Virus record (IMG/VR): IMGVR_UViG_3300008107_000064 | Location: 1-55,405 of that record | Strand: one strand, 5' to 3' | Source: a virus | Length of the DNA stretch: 55,405 nucleotides | Shown here: piece by piece, positions 13,304 to 28,627 of the stretch | Position numbering within the stretch: position 1 is the stretch's first letter | Layout: each line of letters begins with the position of its first letter | Position numbers and translations under genes: made by a program | The notes under the pieces: model-generated | The model's database searches: none | The model's input: only the letters and a program-made list of their open reading frames with translations | Told to the model about the DNA's origin: nothing

Positions 13304-13548
13304 CAGCGTCTCGTCCTTCTCTTGTATGATTGACGGCGAGGAATAGGCGCGAGGCAGACATATTCCTCGTTCTCATATTCGTCATGACGACAGTCTAGAT
13401 ACATCTGGTGCTTGTGCTCATGTCGCTTGGAATAGATGAGATCTCCATTCGGATGCTCGTAGCAATGCATCTCATCTTGATCCAGCTCAGGCCTACGCAA
13501 AAAGCCAAAGCTCCAGTGCCACCCATGCTTCACGATTGCGTCTGTCAT
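13303..13548 (-). CDS. Small acidic/His-rich protein of unknown function
   Basis: 81 residues from the ATG at 13548, which has RBS GAGGAAGG just upstream and overlaps the GcrA-like stop (ATGA). An in-frame start ten codons earlier would overlap the regulator more. The sequence is rich in His, Tyr, Glu and Arg (KHGWHWSFGFLRRPEL, HEHKHQMYLDCRHDEYE) and ends in a basic tail (RRQSYKRRTRR). No domain was recognised. The His/Cys content might bind a metal, but there is no clear pattern. It is translationally coupled to both neighbours. Confidence 0.7.
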   Translation of the reverse strand: MTDAIVKHGWHWSFGFLRRPELDQDEMHCYEHPNGDLIYSKRHEHKHQMYLDCRHDEYENEEYVCLAPIPRRQSYKRRTRR

Positions 13549-13901
13549 TTTGCCTTCCTCACGATTGGAATATAGCAAAGCCGCGCGTGCTCCTCACAGT
13601 ATGACCTGTGATTTATTACGTTGCTACAAAATATCGGAGCAGTCATGTCGCTGTTGAGGATGTAGCGGCACGAATCATGTCTTAGCTTGACTATGTTGCT
13701 GGTCGGTTTTGGCTTCTTATCAACCGTCTTACTGACTGAACGCTTGCGCACAATGCCTGATTTACGCGGCGAGAACACCACGCCTTCTTTCTTGGCTCTA
13801 TGTATCATGCCAGAGATCACGCCTTTAGTGACGCCAATCTTCTTGGCAATTTCGTTTACAGACAGGCCTATGGCCCATAGTTTTTGGATGTCATCTAACA
13901 T
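13545..13901 (-). CDS. GcrA-like cell-cycle transcription regulator
   Basis: 118 residues from the ATG at 13901. The N-terminus is a helix-turn-helix with the GcrA pattern (IQKLWAIGLSVNEIAKKIG at 5-23, then VISGMIHRAKKEG). A basic linker follows. The C-terminal domain carries SCRYILNSD with Cys78, FCSN with Cys92, and YCEEH with Cys102/His105, which matches the conserved C-terminal region of GcrA. In Alphaproteobacteria GcrA binds sigma70 polymerase and methylated GANTC sites to activate promoters. A phage copy could redirect host or phage transcription. Its start carries the same short leader core found before the small genes at 25-28 kb. Confidence 0.85.
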   Translation of the reverse strand: MLDDIQKLWAIGLSVNEIAKKIGVTKGVISGMIHRAKKEGVVFSPRKSGIVRKRSVSKTVDKKPKPTSNIVKLRHDSCRYILNSDMTAPIFCSNVINHRSYCEEHARLCYIPIVRKAK

Positions 13902-13924: not shown

Positions 13925-13942
13925 TGGGGGCCAAAGCCCCCA
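13925..13942 (-). other. GC-rich hairpin between transglycosylase and GcrA-like genes
   Basis: A perfect inverted repeat: GGGGGC, loop CAAA, GCCCCC, extended by a T-A pair. It lies between the transglycosylase stop (13948) and the leader of the GcrA-like gene. There is no T-tract, so it may be an RNA-stability or pausing element rather than a full terminator. Confidence 0.5.
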
Positions 13943-13947
13943 CCGGA

Positions 13948-14499
13948 TTAAAGCATTGCAAGGCGAATGTATTGCTGCTTGTACTGCTCATGGCGACGAG
14001 CAAGCTTTACATTCCACCCGCGCCAACCGGCAACATGGCACGCGGCCATCTGCTTGTGGTTGGACACACCAGATTCCAAGCACCTTTTCATGTGAGCAAT
14101 GCCGGCACGGATGCCGTATTCACACTCATGAAGCCTCTTCGGATCATAACCCAGCGCACGCGCCGAGCCGTCAATCACCTGAAACACACCCTTTGCGTGA
14201 CCATGCGCCGTGCGAGGGCCGTTGATCTTGCAGGTGTAGTTGCTCTCGATCTTGGCAAGCTTGAGCGCGCTTTGCACCCATTTCTCGCCGAGTTCTTCTT
14301 TTGCGATGCGTGCTACTGCATCAGCAACAGGCTTTTTGCTGTCAGGAACCTTGGCCGCATTTACATTCCAGATATGACCGCTCATGGATTGATAGGTCTT
14401 GTCTGTCATGAAAAAGTGGCCCGTCCACTCTTCCTCAATAGCCTTCGCTGGGTTTGACAGTAGTGTTAGTACCATCAAACTTAACATCGTATTGCGCAT
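13948..14499 (-). CDS. Secreted lytic transglycosylase (SLT-like)
   Basis: 183 residues from the ATG at 14499 (RBS AAGAAGGAA). Residues 1-20 are a signal peptide with a good cleavage site after NPAKA. The SLT-type core shows AKIESNYTC with catalytic Glu85, then GHAKGVFQV at 100-108 and YGIRAGIAHMKRC at 128-140. Such enzymes cut peptidoglycan to form 1,6-anhydro-muramyl ends. Unlike the muramidase at 2675, this protein has its own export signal and sits in the replication/recombination operon, so it may act before lysis on the host wall or help release. The 5' end overlaps the end of the DUF6378-like gene by 65 bases. Confidence 0.82.
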   Translation of the reverse strand: MRNTMLSLMVLTLLSNPAKAIEEEWTGHFFMTDKTYQSMSGHIWNVNAAKVPDSKKPVADAVARIAKEELGEKWVQSALKLAKIESNYTCKINGPRTAHGHAKGVFQVIDGSARALGYDPKRLHECEYGIRAGIAHMKRCLESGVSNHKQMAACHVAGWRGWNVKLARRHEQYKQQYIRLAML

Positions 14500-14854
14500 T
14501 AGAAGTTTCCTTCTTGATAGGTGCAAACCGCTTTGCCATAGCGGCAATGTCATCCTCTTCGGTGGTTTGTGCAGGCGTATCCGCTGCGGTGAATGCTTCT
14601 CCAGAAAACTGAGCCGAAAAAGCAGTGTAGTTTACATTGTCCACATAGTTGTCGTCCAGCAAAGGATTGACGCGGCGACGCGCCAGCTTCACGGCTTCGA
14701 GAACAGATGTGATGTCATATTTTGTGAGTTGCTTGCCAGTAATCAATGTTGCCATTTGTGCAGCAACTTCAAACAGAAACTCAGGGTTCCCGTATTGCTC
14801 ACCGCGATCGTTCACGACAACAGCGGAATGCATGAGGATGTCTTTGTGGTTCAT
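14435..14854 (-). CDS. DUF6378-like protein
   Basis: 139 residues from the ATG at 14854, which overlaps the upstream stop (ATGA) and has GGAG six bases before it; an ATG 12 bases earlier is less likely. The first 90 residues match the DUF6378 pattern: HKDILMHSAVVVNDRGEQYG, FEVAAQMATLITGKQ, then YDITSVLEAVKLARRRVNP and DDNYVDNVNYTAF. Family members are common in phages and have an all-helical look reminiscent of MazG-type proteins, but no activity is established to my knowledge. The C-terminal 45 residues are acidic and probably disordered. The call is by pattern recall. Confidence 0.7.
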   Translation of the reverse strand: MNHKDILMHSAVVVNDRGEQYGNPEFLFEVAAQMATLITGKQLTKYDITSVLEAVKLARRRVNPLLDDNYVDNVNYTAFSAQFSGEAFTAADTPAQTTEEDDIAAMAKRFAPIKKETSNAQYDVKFDGTNTTVKPSEGY

Positions 14855-15716: not shown

Positions 15717-17436
15717 GATTGAAAGCCCTCACTTCGTAGAAGTCACCAACTTTGCGGTAGGTGATCGTGTGCGGTTGCTGGTTGTTGAGAGCGTTGAACA
15801 TGTTCAGCGTGGCAACAGCGTTCGGATGCTTTGGCGTGAGCTGCACCCAGAACGTGAACGAGTGATCTTCTGTGACCACCTTCACCATGCGCGTTGGGTT
15901 GCCAGCTTTGCTCACGCTTGGTTTTGCACTCCAGCCGGTTACCATTTCAGTCCGCCACTGCTTGAGATCGCGGATCTTTCGCTCTGCTGCAAGCCTTAGC
16001 TTTTCATTCGGGTCCACCAGTTCCGCATTACAAGCCTCACATCGACGAGCAGCAATGTCGTTCTCGTGCTCACACTCAGAACATTTCTTCGCAGTCCAGC
16101 GATACGAGCATTGACGGAGTTCGTTACCGAGGAGATGAACCGCTGTGCAGCGTCGTCCAAAGTGCGCAGGAATGGGACCAAAATCGCCTTGGAGCGGATT
16201 TCCATCAAGGTCCACAAAATAACCGCTGCGGTCAATTCCAAACCGATCAGGATTAGGCCGAGCACGAAACACATTATCCACATCACATACAGGGCAGGTG
16301 CATGTAAGATCTTCTTCATTTTTAGATGCCTTCTTCTCTTTGATCTCAGGATTAAACACGTCACCATCTGGGCAGTGACGCTCGACGTTCTCGGCATAGT
16401 CCAGAACAAGACAGTTCTCTTTGCCATCATGCAAACGCAGGCCGCGACCAATGATCTGCTGCATTAGGCCGACCGATTCCGTGGCACGCAACATCGCGAT
16501 AACATCGACATGCGTGGCATCAAAGCCGGTCGTCAGCACCGCCACGTTGACGATATATTTGATCTCTTGCGCCTTAAACGCAGCCAAGATCCGCTCGCGC
16601 TCCTTCTTCGGCGTCTCGCCGGTCACGATCGCCGACAACTCAGGCGGCAGGCTGGCAAGGCACTCCTCAGCGTGCGCAACCGTTGCAGCGAAGATCAGTA
16701 CGCCCTTACGATCGCGAGACTGCTCGACGATGTCAGCAATGATACGCGCCGTCTTGCGCCCGTGGCCGAGATAAGCACGCTCAACGTCTTCAGCATTAAA
16801 GTTGCCCATGCTGTTCAGTTGCAAGTGCTTTGTCTTGTAGCTCTCAGCGTTCAAATCACCAATCACCGGCGGCGTAAGATAGCCCTGATCAATCAGCTCA
16901 TGTGCGCGGATGCGATACACGCAGCGCGTGAAGAAGCCATTTGTACCAGCCTGCCCGCCGTTCTCCCACTGCTTGAACACATAGCCGCTGCCAAGCCTGT
17001 AGGGTGTCGCAGACATGCCAACAACGCGCATGTTGTGATTAGGGATCCTGTCGATGATCTTACGAATTGTGGGCGTAATACCATGGCACTCGTCAATGAT
17101 AATCATGGCGATCTCATTGCCAAAGCGCTCGATGCTGTTCAGCACCGTCACAGGCGTGCCAAACACCACAGGATGCTCGCGGCACTTAATGCCAACGCTC
17201 GCCGAGAAAAACGAAGCATCACCGGGATACTTCGCATGGTTCTGCTCGACCAGCTCCTTCGATGGCGCGATGCACAACACATGCTTTCCGCTCATTTCAT
17301 GCACGGTCTTTGCAAGCTCGGCGATAATGTGGCTCTTGCCGGCGCCGGTCGCTGCTTCGATCATGCAAGGTTCGGTGGTCTTCTTAATCCAAGCAACGAT
17401 CTTGTCGTGGGCTTCTTGCTGGTATGGTCTAAGCAT
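15700..17436 (-). CDS. SF2 DEAD/DEAH-type helicase with C-terminal zinc ribbons
   Basis: 578 residues. Helicase motifs in order: RPYQQEA (3-9), Walker A ATGAGKS (29-35), DECH (115-118), SAT (142-144), a helicase-C region with TTGFD near 302-306, and QIIGRGLRL (327-335). After the motor come Cys clusters (CTCPVC at 379-384, then CSEC and CEAC around 445-465) that look like zinc ribbons. It is a DNA-dependent ATPase likely remodelling forks or branched DNA with the VRR-NUC nuclease just downstream. It overlaps the PD-(D/E)XK gene upstream by eight bases. A restriction-like role with the neighbouring methyltransferase and nuclease is a weaker alternative. Confidence 0.88.
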   Translation of the reverse strand: MLRPYQQEAHDKIVAWIKKTTEPCMIEAATGAGKSHIIAELAKTVHEMSGKHVLCIAPSKELVEQNHAKYPGDASFFSASVGIKCREHPVVFGTPVTVLNSIERFGNEIAMIIIDECHGITPTIRKIIDRIPNHNMRVVGMSATPYRLGSGYVFKQWENGGQAGTNGFFTRCVYRIRAHELIDQGYLTPPVIGDLNAESYKTKHLQLNSMGNFNAEDVERAYLGHGRKTARIIADIVEQSRDRKGVLIFAATVAHAEECLASLPPELSAIVTGETPKKERERILAAFKAQEIKYIVNVAVLTTGFDATHVDVIAMLRATESVGLMQQIIGRGLRLHDGKENCLVLDYAENVERHCPDGDVFNPEIKEKKASKNEEDLTCTCPVCDVDNVFRARPNPDRFGIDRSGYFVDLDGNPLQGDFGPIPAHFGRRCTAVHLLGNELRQCSYRWTAKKCSECEHENDIAARRCEACNAELVDPNEKLRLAAERKIRDLKQWRTEMVTGWSAKPSVSKAGNPTRMVKVVTEDHSFTFWVQLTPKHPNAVATLNMFNALNNQQPHTITYRKVGDFYEVRAFNLEIAA

Positions 17437-17869
17437 AGCGAATGAACCTTTTCATTGGAATAAGCCCACACGGTTCTGTGTCTTGTTTATCGCCACGGTC
17501 ATATCGACCGGCAATTACAAGATCAAAAATAGGCCAATCGTTGCTCGTGAATGTTGTTGCATAAGTTCCGTCTGGTAGGCCAATAGCCAACACAAATGGA
17601 ATGCTATGCGTGTCGCTCCACGCTTTTGCGCTTTGAAGTTTATGAGCGCTCAAAATCAAGCCGCCCATTTCATCTAGCTTTTCAAAAGTGTAATTGCGGC
17701 ACTTAATTTCCATCACCGCTACGACCTTGCCGCTGCGCTTGATGGCATAATCCACCACACAGGCTGGTTTCATTTTAACAATGTCGCAAAGCCAAATAGA
17801 GGCAAGGGTCTCAGCGACTTGTGCTTCTTTTTGTCTATCAGCGCTTGTTTCGTAGAGGGGACGGCTCAT
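17429..17869 (-). CDS. PD-(D/E)XK nuclease-like protein
   Basis: 146 residues. A nuclease-like core is seen: a helix with Glu20, then VVDYAIKRSG with Asp40, and AVMEIKCRNY with Glu54-Ile-Lys56, followed by a helix and strands. Phages use such small nucleases in recombination or DNA degradation. The start overlaps the methyltransferase stop (ATGA) and the end overlaps the helicase start, so the three are co-translated. The family is inferred from the D...ExK pattern only. Confidence 0.72.
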   Translation of the reverse strand: MSRPLYETSADRQKEAQVAETLASIWLCDIVKMKPACVVDYAIKRSGKVVAVMEIKCRNYTFEKLDEMGGLILSAHKLQSAKAWSDTHSIPFVLAIGLPDGTYATTFTSNDWPIFDLVIAGRYDRGDKQDTEPCGLIPMKRFIRYA

Positions 17870-18378
17870 TTGCTCACGAATCTGGTCTGGTTGGTTGGGC
17901 TGCCAAATTTATACCAACAGCAGTTGTCTTTGCCAACCGTGTTGCCGAACCATTTCACGCGGCCCACACTGACGATTAAATGACACCTGTCGAGATATTG
18001 ACGGGCCTGCTTAGTAAACATCCAGTCGGCATCGAACAGGAACCACGTCGGGCGCAGCATCGAACACCGCTCGATGAGCTGGTGCAGGACTACTCGCGAC
18101 CACGGGGGGTTCGTGATGATATGCGTGGCCTTACCCACATCTTCGTGCGTAAGAAAAGCCGCATCATGGTGCGTGTACGGCGACCCGGAATCTGCGTCGT
18201 AAGAACTAACACAGCGATGACCGTGCCGCTCCAGATGGGTGATAAGATGCCCCTGACCAGCGCACGGCTCGCAGAACTTAGTCTCAACAGGCAAGTGCGC
18301 CAGCAATGGCAGCACAGCCTCGTAAGGCGTGCTGTAGAAATCCATTGGCTTGCGCGGGAGATCACTTCTCTTTCCCAT
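17866..18378 (-). CDS. DNA adenine-type methyltransferase-like protein
   Basis: 170 residues. Class I SAM-dependent features: FYSTPYEAVLPLL (motif X-like, 14-26), CEPCAGQGHL (motif I, 36-45) and ITNPPW (motif IV, NPPW at 90-93), the catalytic tetrapeptide of N6-adenine or N4-cytosine enzymes. It is small and has no obvious target-recognition domain, so it may be an orphan enzyme of relaxed specificity. It would mark phage DNA against restriction or replication errors. It overlaps YqaJ upstream and the nuclease downstream. It is not CcrM-like (no DPPY), so specificity for GANTC is not supported. Confidence 0.8.
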   Translation of the reverse strand: MGKRSDLPRKPMDFYSTPYEAVLPLLAHLPVETKFCEPCAGQGHLITHLERHGHRCVSSYDADSGSPYTHHDAAFLTHEDVGKATHIITNPPWSRVVLHQLIERCSMLRPTWFLFDADWMFTKQARQYLDRCHLIVSVGRVKWFGNTVGKDNCCWYKFGSPTNQTRFVSK

Positions 18379-21923: not shown

Positions 21924-22020
21924 TGGCATTCTCCTTCTCTTCAACGGGTTGACCCTAGGCCGAATCCAGTGTCATTGTCAACAACACGCTGTGGCAAAAC
22001 AAATATGGACCTGTGAGGAC
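21924..22020. promoter_or_regulatory. Divergent promoter/operator region
   Basis: 97 bases between the leftward Sak4-like gene and the rightward HTH gene. Inverted repeat GTTGAC (21948-21953) / GTCAAC (21977-21982) spans the centre. A leftward -35-like TTGACA lies at 21976-21981, with a CTAGGG hexamer 17 bases on that is a poor -10. GAATC (a GANTC site) lies at 21962-21966 between the repeat arms. A short palindrome TTGTCAACAA is also present. This is the likely operator for the HTH protein encoded at 22021. Promoter positions are by eye only. Confidence 0.5.
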
Positions 22021-25904: not shown

Positions 25905-25957
25905 TGGTTTGGTCTCCGTTGGTCTATGATTCTGTGTACCAGAACTTTGTTCCGGTC
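25902..25957 (-). promoter_or_regulatory. Repeated extended leader, copy 1 (diverged)
   Basis: Minus-strand order: GACCGGAACAAAGTTCTGG, a six-base gap, GAATC (25932-25928), then CCAACGGAGACCAAACCA and ATG. The upstream block differs at several bases from the other extended copies, but the GAATC and the start-proximal core are kept. Likely promoter plus RBS cassette. Confidence 0.65.
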
Positions 25958-26364: not shown

Positions 26365-26437
26365 GGGGTTGGTCTCCGGTTGGTCTGATATTCACAATAA
26401 GCATTTCGCGATTCGGTGCAAGAACTTTTTTCTGGTC
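26362..26437 (-). promoter_or_regulatory. Repeated extended leader, copy 3
   Basis: Minus-strand order: GACCAGAAAAAAGTTCTTG, four bases, GAATC (26414-26410), a unique stretch, then CAGACCAACCGGAGACCAACCCC and ATG. A perfect hairpin (GTGAGGGG/CCCCTCAC with a four-base loop, 26438-26457) sits immediately upstream, over the previous gene's stop. Confidence 0.68.
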
Positions 26438-27065: not shown

Positions 27066-27138
27066 TGGGCTGGTCTCCGTTGGTCGATGACCCTTTGTCT
27101 CATGATTCGGTTTTAGAGACAAGAACTTTTTTCTGGTC
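27063..27138 (-). promoter_or_regulatory. Repeated extended leader, copy 4
   Basis: Minus-strand order: GACCAGAAAAAAGTTCTTG, 11 bases, GAATC (27108-27104) within CGAATCATGAGACAAAGGG, then TCATCGACCAACGGAGACCAGCCCA and ATG. Nearly identical to copy 7 over the upstream half. Confidence 0.72.
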
Positions 27139-27526: not shown

Positions 27527-27607
27527 GCTGGTCTCCTTGGTTTGGGTTGGTCTGACCTGATCTTTATTTCATGATTCGATGATCGAGACAAGAACTTTTT
27601 TCTGGTC
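27524..27607 (-). promoter_or_regulatory. Repeated extended leader, copy 5
   Basis: Minus-strand order: GACCAGAAAAAAGTTCTTG, 11 bases, GAATC (27577-27573) in CGAATCATGAAATAAAG, then CAGACCAACCCAAACCAAGGAGACCAGC and ATG. It begins two bases after the preceding gene's stop. Confidence 0.7.
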
Positions 27608-28180: not shown

Positions 28181-28264
28181 TGGTCTGGTCTCCGTTGGGT
28201 TGGTCTGTTTCGATGACCCTTTGTCTCATGATTCGATTTTCCGTACAAGAACTTTTTTCTGGTC
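28178..28264 (-). promoter_or_regulatory. Repeated extended leader, copy 7 (first of the array)
   Basis: Minus-strand order: GACCAGAAAAAAGTTCTTG, 11 bases, GAATC (28234-28230) in CGAATCATGAGACAAAGGG, then CAGACCAACCCAACGGAGACCAGACCA and ATG. No other leftward gene lies upstream, so at least this copy should hold the promoter of the array. Confidence 0.75.
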
Positions 28265-28408: not shown

Positions 28409-28627
28409 ATGCAGAACAACCAACTCAAAAGCATCGTCGAGCGCATCGAGCGGCTTGAGGAAGAGAAAGCAGCCATCCTCTCCGACATCAAAGACGTGCT
28501 GTTAGAAGCCAAATCAAACGGCTTCGAACCCAAGATCATCCGCAAGGTCATCGCCCTGCGTAAGATGGACCCAGACGAGCGCGAGCAACTCAATCTCATG
28601 ATTGAAACCTATATGGCCGCGCTGTAA
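28409..28627 (+). CDS. GapR-like nucleoid protein (DUF2312 family)
   Basis: 72 residues with GGAGG seven bases before ATG. It matches GapR/DUF2312 closely: QLKSIVERIERLEEEKAAI, DIKDVLLEAKSNGFEPK and RKVIALRKMDPDEREQ. In Alphaproteobacteria GapR clamps over-twisted AT-rich DNA and supports replication and transcription. The phage copy may help replication, packaging or host DNA take-over. It is the first gene of the packaging/morphogenesis operon. A strong inverted repeat lies between it and terS. Confidence 0.85.
   Translation: MQNNQLKSIVERIERLEEEKAAILSDIKDVLLEAKSNGFEPKIIRKVIALRKMDPDEREQLNLMIETYMAAL

Follow-up and report, generated by a model that had tools for sequence, protein, structure and literature searches.

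A compact GcrA-family protein and candidate GcrA-type early promoters in a family of environmental phages

GcrA is a bacterial cell-cycle protein that aids RNA polymerase starts at methylated promoters, and GANTC is both the methylation site of CcrM and the site that GcrA binds. Homologues encoded by phages are already known: a putative GcrA-like regulator, gp222 of phage phiCbK, was described in 2012 and proposed to alter the replicative state of the host (PMC3556154), another homologue is gp5 of Agrobacterium phage Atu_ph08 (PMC6630229), and a GcrA annotation is present on several GenBank phages. No early promoters with a GcrA motif have been reported for phiCbK, and a survey of alphaproteobacterial phages, from which the family described here is probably absent, found no asymmetric distribution or positional bias of GcrA sites (PMC9437464).

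Here we describe a GcrA-family gene in a 55,405-base linear virus record, the whole of which is referred to as the window. Its product resembles phiCbK gp222 in being a phage-encoded member of Pfam GcrA with an HTH and a Cys/His sigma domain in an alphaproteobacterial setting; gp222, however, has 182 aa, retains CRWPYGDP and clusters with the host proteins. With GcrA of C. crescentus (173 aa; 5yiu, 5yix, 7ye1, 7ye2) it shares the order of HTH, linker and sigma-interacting domain as well as fold matches, whereas the host protein has a longer linker, WPIGDP and a different recognition helix. Rhizobium phages RHph_Y1_10 and RHph_X2_30 also encode GcrA homologues (ca. 22-34% identical), some of them with two HTH regions. 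Apparent tandem HTH regions, two before the sigma domain, were also seen in phage GcrA proteins of three other contigs (L005:1368-1928, L006:1321-1995, L007:1468-2112), and the L006 record bears the label Microcystis phage, which is surprising, as a GcrA gene would not be expected with such a host. Taken alone, the window gene adds a further member to a known group; what goes beyond the known phage GcrA proteins are the motif-bearing early promoters, the presence of proteins made of the sigma-interacting domain only (SID-only) in the same genomic slot, and the replacement of WPIGDP.

A divergent member of the GcrA family

The gcrA-like gene lies at 13545..13901 on the minus strand and encodes 118 aa, arranged as HTH (residues ~1-40), linker (41-70) and sigma-interacting domain (71-118, with C78, C92, C102 and H105). 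The first-pass annotation had placed a GcrA-like gene at these coordinates, which hold, and the strand is now given as minus: this frame is open over 118 aa and the plus-strand frame is full of stops. The start codon is the ATG at 13901, supported by an in-frame stop four codons upstream in the orthologue (L085/L099). Membership of the GcrA family, as first proposed, was confirmed by a profile search against Pfam (GcrA, PF07750; 48.4 bits, E 1.8e-12, gathering cut-off 26.9), in which the match falls in two stretches, one at the HTH end and one at the C-terminal end. A phmmer search of the PDB gave GcrA entries 7ye1 (E 1.8e-7) and 5yiu in first and second place, and the best PDB matches, in sequence and fold alike, are C. 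crescentus GcrA. The score against the NCBI equivalog NF050816 (32.9 bits) is below its cut-off of 280; judged from its sequence, the protein is a member of the GcrA family and, by the NCBI model, no equivalent of host GcrA. With P0001 as sole query no bacterial relative was found, and among viral contigs one identical fragment only.

The AlphaFold2 model of the protein (mean pLDDT 80, aligned rows including hosts) has helices at residues 2-11, 15-22 and 26-38, and its three best PDB matches are all GcrA (7ye1_G, 5yix_B and 7ye2_G), with weak E-values (0.007-0.26) that are expected for so small a protein. One of these, 5yix_B, is the sigma-interacting domain together with sigma70 domain 2, and the phage model reaches a TM-score of 0.76 over this target. 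The four Cys/His residues named in the first-pass annotation (Cys78, Cys92, Cys102 and His105) are present and, together with Tyr101, invariant across 17 phage and host sequences. The same annotation had called the protein shorter than host GcrA, and so it is, mainly because of a shorter linker (~30 residues vs ~60).

WPIGDP, a stretch of the sigma domain that is nearly invariant in hosts, is YILNSD in the window protein; a motif search found the start C[KRH]WP in 79 of 82 bacterial sequences (two of the other three look like pattern artefacts), whereas the phage family has CR[YF][IV] at this place and, preceding the last tyrosine, a cysteine where hosts have alanine. The recognition helix reads TKGVISGMIHR in the phage and TRNAVIGKVHR in the host. 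One bacterial GcrA, from an uncultured alphaproteobacterium (L140), carries CRYGIGDP and ARLCY, in part like the motif of the phage family.

An orthologue in a related phage (G027/L085) is 77% identical to the window protein, and the two genes differ at 25, 8 and 57 first, second and third codon positions, with dN 0.14 and dS about 2. dN is low in both domains, and for HTH residues 1-45 dN/dS is low as well (0.11 vs 1.06). This pattern of substitution marks the window gcrA as a real gene under selection, and we consider the product of 13545-13901 a divergent, compact GcrA-family protein with an HTH and a sigma-interacting domain. In a tree of GcrA sequences, host GcrAs and phiCbK form a supported group (99/95) and the window phage family falls outside it, so that a recent capture of the gene from a host appears unlikely; the phages have several long branches in this tree and do not come out as a single clade.

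GANTC in candidate early promoters

GANTC is rare in the window (67 observed vs 178.7 expected), and in a set of 16 comparable palindromes no other is depleted as strongly. Pelagiphages have been described as avoiding GANTC (PMC9516812), so that its rarity by itself tells little about GcrA. Even so, five of the sites lie in a minus-strand element repeated between 25.9 and 28.3 kb, each copy located 24-50 nt ahead of a small leftward gene, in which a shared box, GAAAAAAGTTCTTG, is followed 4-11 bases on by GAATC and, in some copies, then by a -10-like sequence. From their position and small size we infer that the genes of this region are expressed early. The published GcrA-activation motif is YGAKTCG, with GANTC placed -40 to +40 of the start (PMC7987155), and it is matched in elements 1 (28216..28259, GAATC at 28230-28234), 2 (27559..27602, GAATC at 27573-27577), 3 (27090..27133, GAATC at 27104-27108) and 4 (26389..26432, GAATC at 26410-26414, with TTGCAC-16-TATTGT); in element 5, a divergent copy (25909..25952, GAATC at 25928-25932), the extended motif is inexact. 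Thus, YGAKTCG occurs in 4/5 early elements vs 9/62 other GANTC sites of the window (p 0.004).

The same association extends to the relatives. Of 54 distinct elements from the window and related contigs, 36 are followed by GANTC within 25 nt, compared with 2.8% of random 25-nt windows, and YGAKTCG is found in 35 of these 36 vs 142/944 background sites (15%), with a p of 1.5e-26 that is too small because element copies share ancestry. The GANTC offset ranges from 15 to 27 nt (seven offsets) and the orientation is flipped in some elements, which argues that the site was not simply copied along with its flanks. The element sites are far commoner and more motif-like than sites elsewhere in genomes that mostly avoid GANTC, and by sequence they qualify as putative GcrA-type promoters. 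The GANTC of the early elements might serve some purpose other than GcrA, e.g., as the site of a phage repressor or as an element that plain sigma70 reads in a methylation-sensitive way, and about a third of the elements do lack GANTC and have the look of ordinary promoters. However, 35/36 sites also conform to the GcrA-activation motif in their flanking bases and GcrA homologues are carried in the same genomes of the family, and we regard such a purpose as very improbable.

Another promoter-like sequence, TTGACA-18-TAGGGT (21952..21981, minus strand), heads the Sak4/SSB/YqaJ/MTase/helicase/gcrA run and has GATTCG in its spacer; this site, which lacks the Y of the extended motif, is kept in L045 though the flanks have changed. 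Here and in the five early elements, GANTC stands within or next to the -35/-10 spacer. A scan for generic sigma70 promoters was uninformative (6 found vs 7.6 expected), and an IMG/VR-wide scan for the pattern returned 84 stretches, part of which are expected by chance. A compensation of weak -10/-35 sequences by GANTC was not supported, as the strength of these sequences did not differ significantly between elements with and without it (p 0.07).

We give an even chance to the reading in which the gene product is a compact sigma70 cofactor of the GcrA family and the phage carries a set of GcrA-type promoters for it to act on. The most likely role of the protein is that of a sigma70 cofactor in a phage promoter system based on the GcrA motif, through which phage gene expression is probably coupled to the cell-cycle methylation system of the host. 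Incoming phage DNA would carry m6A at GANTC sites, left by the CcrM of the previous host, and host GcrA with sigma70 RNA polymerase would open the early promoters; these have to be active before any phage product is there, which makes host GcrA likely to be the first to read them. Later the phage GcrA-like protein, a product of the replication operon, would keep sigma70 RNA polymerase working at these predicted sites or retune it, and one may speculate that loss of methylation as the phage DNA replicates acts as an off-switch. The earlier suggestion that the protein redirects polymerase to phage promoters hereby gains specific but indirect support, in the form of the GcrA-activation motif in the early promoters of the phage.

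Stand-alone sigma-interacting domains and rival roles

In sister phages the gcrA slot is occupied by a SID-only protein of 57-61 residues (L086, L087, L088 and L089, i.e., records G046, G012, G010 and G009; further contigs, some of the same records, are L092, L094, L095, L096 and L098). The space upstream of the SID-only gene is taken by the neighbouring gene, so no in-frame HTH is hidden ahead of it. Third-position changes dominate in these genes and dN is far below dS, a pattern indicating that the SID-only proteins are under purifying selection. Their model has a mean pLDDT of 70 and its credible PDB matches are GcrA entries only (sigma domains). We did not meet a stand-alone sigma-interacting domain in the open-access literature. 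A possible model is provided by Crl, RbpA and GrgA, small activators acting on sigma domain 2 (reviewed in PMC7403470), although their sequences are unrelated and they are not phage-encoded in that review. The SID-only proteins offer natural minimal versions by which the binding of sigma and the binding of DNA by GcrA could be told apart.

Such proteins lend themselves to another explanation, in which host GcrA alone reads the methylated early promoters and the phage protein modulates or antagonises it: its sigma-interacting domain would occupy sigma70 domain 2, displace host GcrA and later shut down early as well as host GcrA-dependent transcription. Small proteins kept by purifying selection in the same slot of sister phages, with a model matching only GcrA sigma domains, speak for this explanation; some SID-only phages also keep GANTC early promoters, and early promoters have to work before phage proteins exist. 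Yet in the window protein and its orthologue an HTH is retained at low dN/dS, a part that a pure competitor could do without, and GANTC is present in 7/7 clear elements of the two phages with a short HTH-bearing gcrA (window and G027) vs 3/10 elements of the SID-only phages (G010 2/3, G046 1/2), counts that are not independent. We consider this explanation rather unlikely. A strict pairing of a phage DNA-binding domain with GANTC promoters, also considered, was only partly true by the same counts, and the SID-only phages with GANTC elements show that such promoters can occur where the phage has no HTH of this kind.

A different situation is met in record G022 (40,445 b), which encodes an HTH-bearing GcrA in a 203-aa frame and contains no GANTC at all (148 expected); L070 (20,012 b) likewise has 0 vs 60 expected, and G032 (60,000 b read) 1 vs 176 expected. 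The GcrA of G022 cannot use GANTC promoters, and that branch needs another target. The phage protein could act on the host regulon, switching on GcrA-dependent replication and division genes and turning a non-replicating cell into a good host, with the phage promoters being a separate matter. This is the published proposal for phiCbK gp222 (PMC3556154), to which the other role suggested in the first-pass annotation, a host held replication-competent, corresponds, and the long GcrA of G022 could act only on the host or via another site. The proposal does not account for the GcrA motif within promoters of the phage itself, and we consider it improbable. For the preferred reading of a sigma70 cofactor acting at GcrA-type phage promoters, the points against are the absence of GANTC from G022, its presence in SID-only phages, the need for early promoters to work ahead of any phage protein, the altered recognition helix and WPIGDP, the lack of a significant difference in -10/-35 strength, and the window itself, in which a CcrM-type methylase (PF01555) was sought and not found.

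In its widest form, which we put forward tentatively and think rather less than evenly probable, the early transcription of this environmental phage family is built on the epigenetic GcrA-CcrM promoters of the host: methylated DNA would fire the early genes, these would go silent once replication yields unmethylated copies, and the phages' own GcrA variants, including stand-alone sigma-binding domains of 60 residues that lack a DNA-binding part, would steer the process. If this is true, host DNA methylation controls when the early programme of the phage runs. Homologues of GcrA in phages have been on record since 2012, together with a conjecture on the cell cycle of the host; likely targets can now be named, i.e., specific early promoters, and these make the question of their role addressable by reporter assay.

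Relatives and gene neighbourhood

Through the terminase we reached 71 related IMG/VR contigs, many of them fragments, and searched 50 for GcrA and GapR, with matches in 9 and 16, respectively. The first-pass annotation had paired the GcrA-like protein with a GapR-like one as parts of a chromosome-control network. The latter, a DNA-binding protein encoded beside the terminase small subunit (28409..28627, plus strand), is real (PF10073, E 2.5e-28), and the pair is recurrent, with both proteins in 5/50 relatives (G012, G017, G021, G027 and G039). A 170-aa protein at 17866-18378 (minus strand) has PCAG and NPPW motifs and matches the DNA methyltransferase PHROG 799 (E 7e-34), with no Pfam match; it is not a CcrM-type enzyme. 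An otherwise nearly identical contig (L003) lacks 113 bases (16701-16813) inside the helicase gene, a length that is not a multiple of three; this gap is either an assembly difference or a sign of a broken copy.

A DUF6378 gene precedes gcrA in every relative compared, and between the two, in all relatives compared except L100 and including those with SID-only proteins, lies a lytic-transglycosylase-like gene (13948..14553, minus strand, just upstream of gcrA), named from a reading of its sequence since its PHROG match is weak and of unknown function. A GC-rich hairpin, GGGGGC-TTTG-GCCCCC (13926..13941, minus strand), separates this gene from gcrA; Rfam gave no match within 12.8-28.8 kb of the window. 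The hairpin occupies the same place in L085-L089 and L092-L098 and stands before all SID-only genes, with loops of TTTG, TACG or TTCG, and although stem and loop vary from phage to phage, the bases still pair. Many leftward genes have in common the leader GGAGACCAGACCAATG or a sequence close to it at 25.9-28.2 kb and at 13.9 kb (minus strand), and the leader of gcrA itself, ACGAGACCAGACCATG, is among them.
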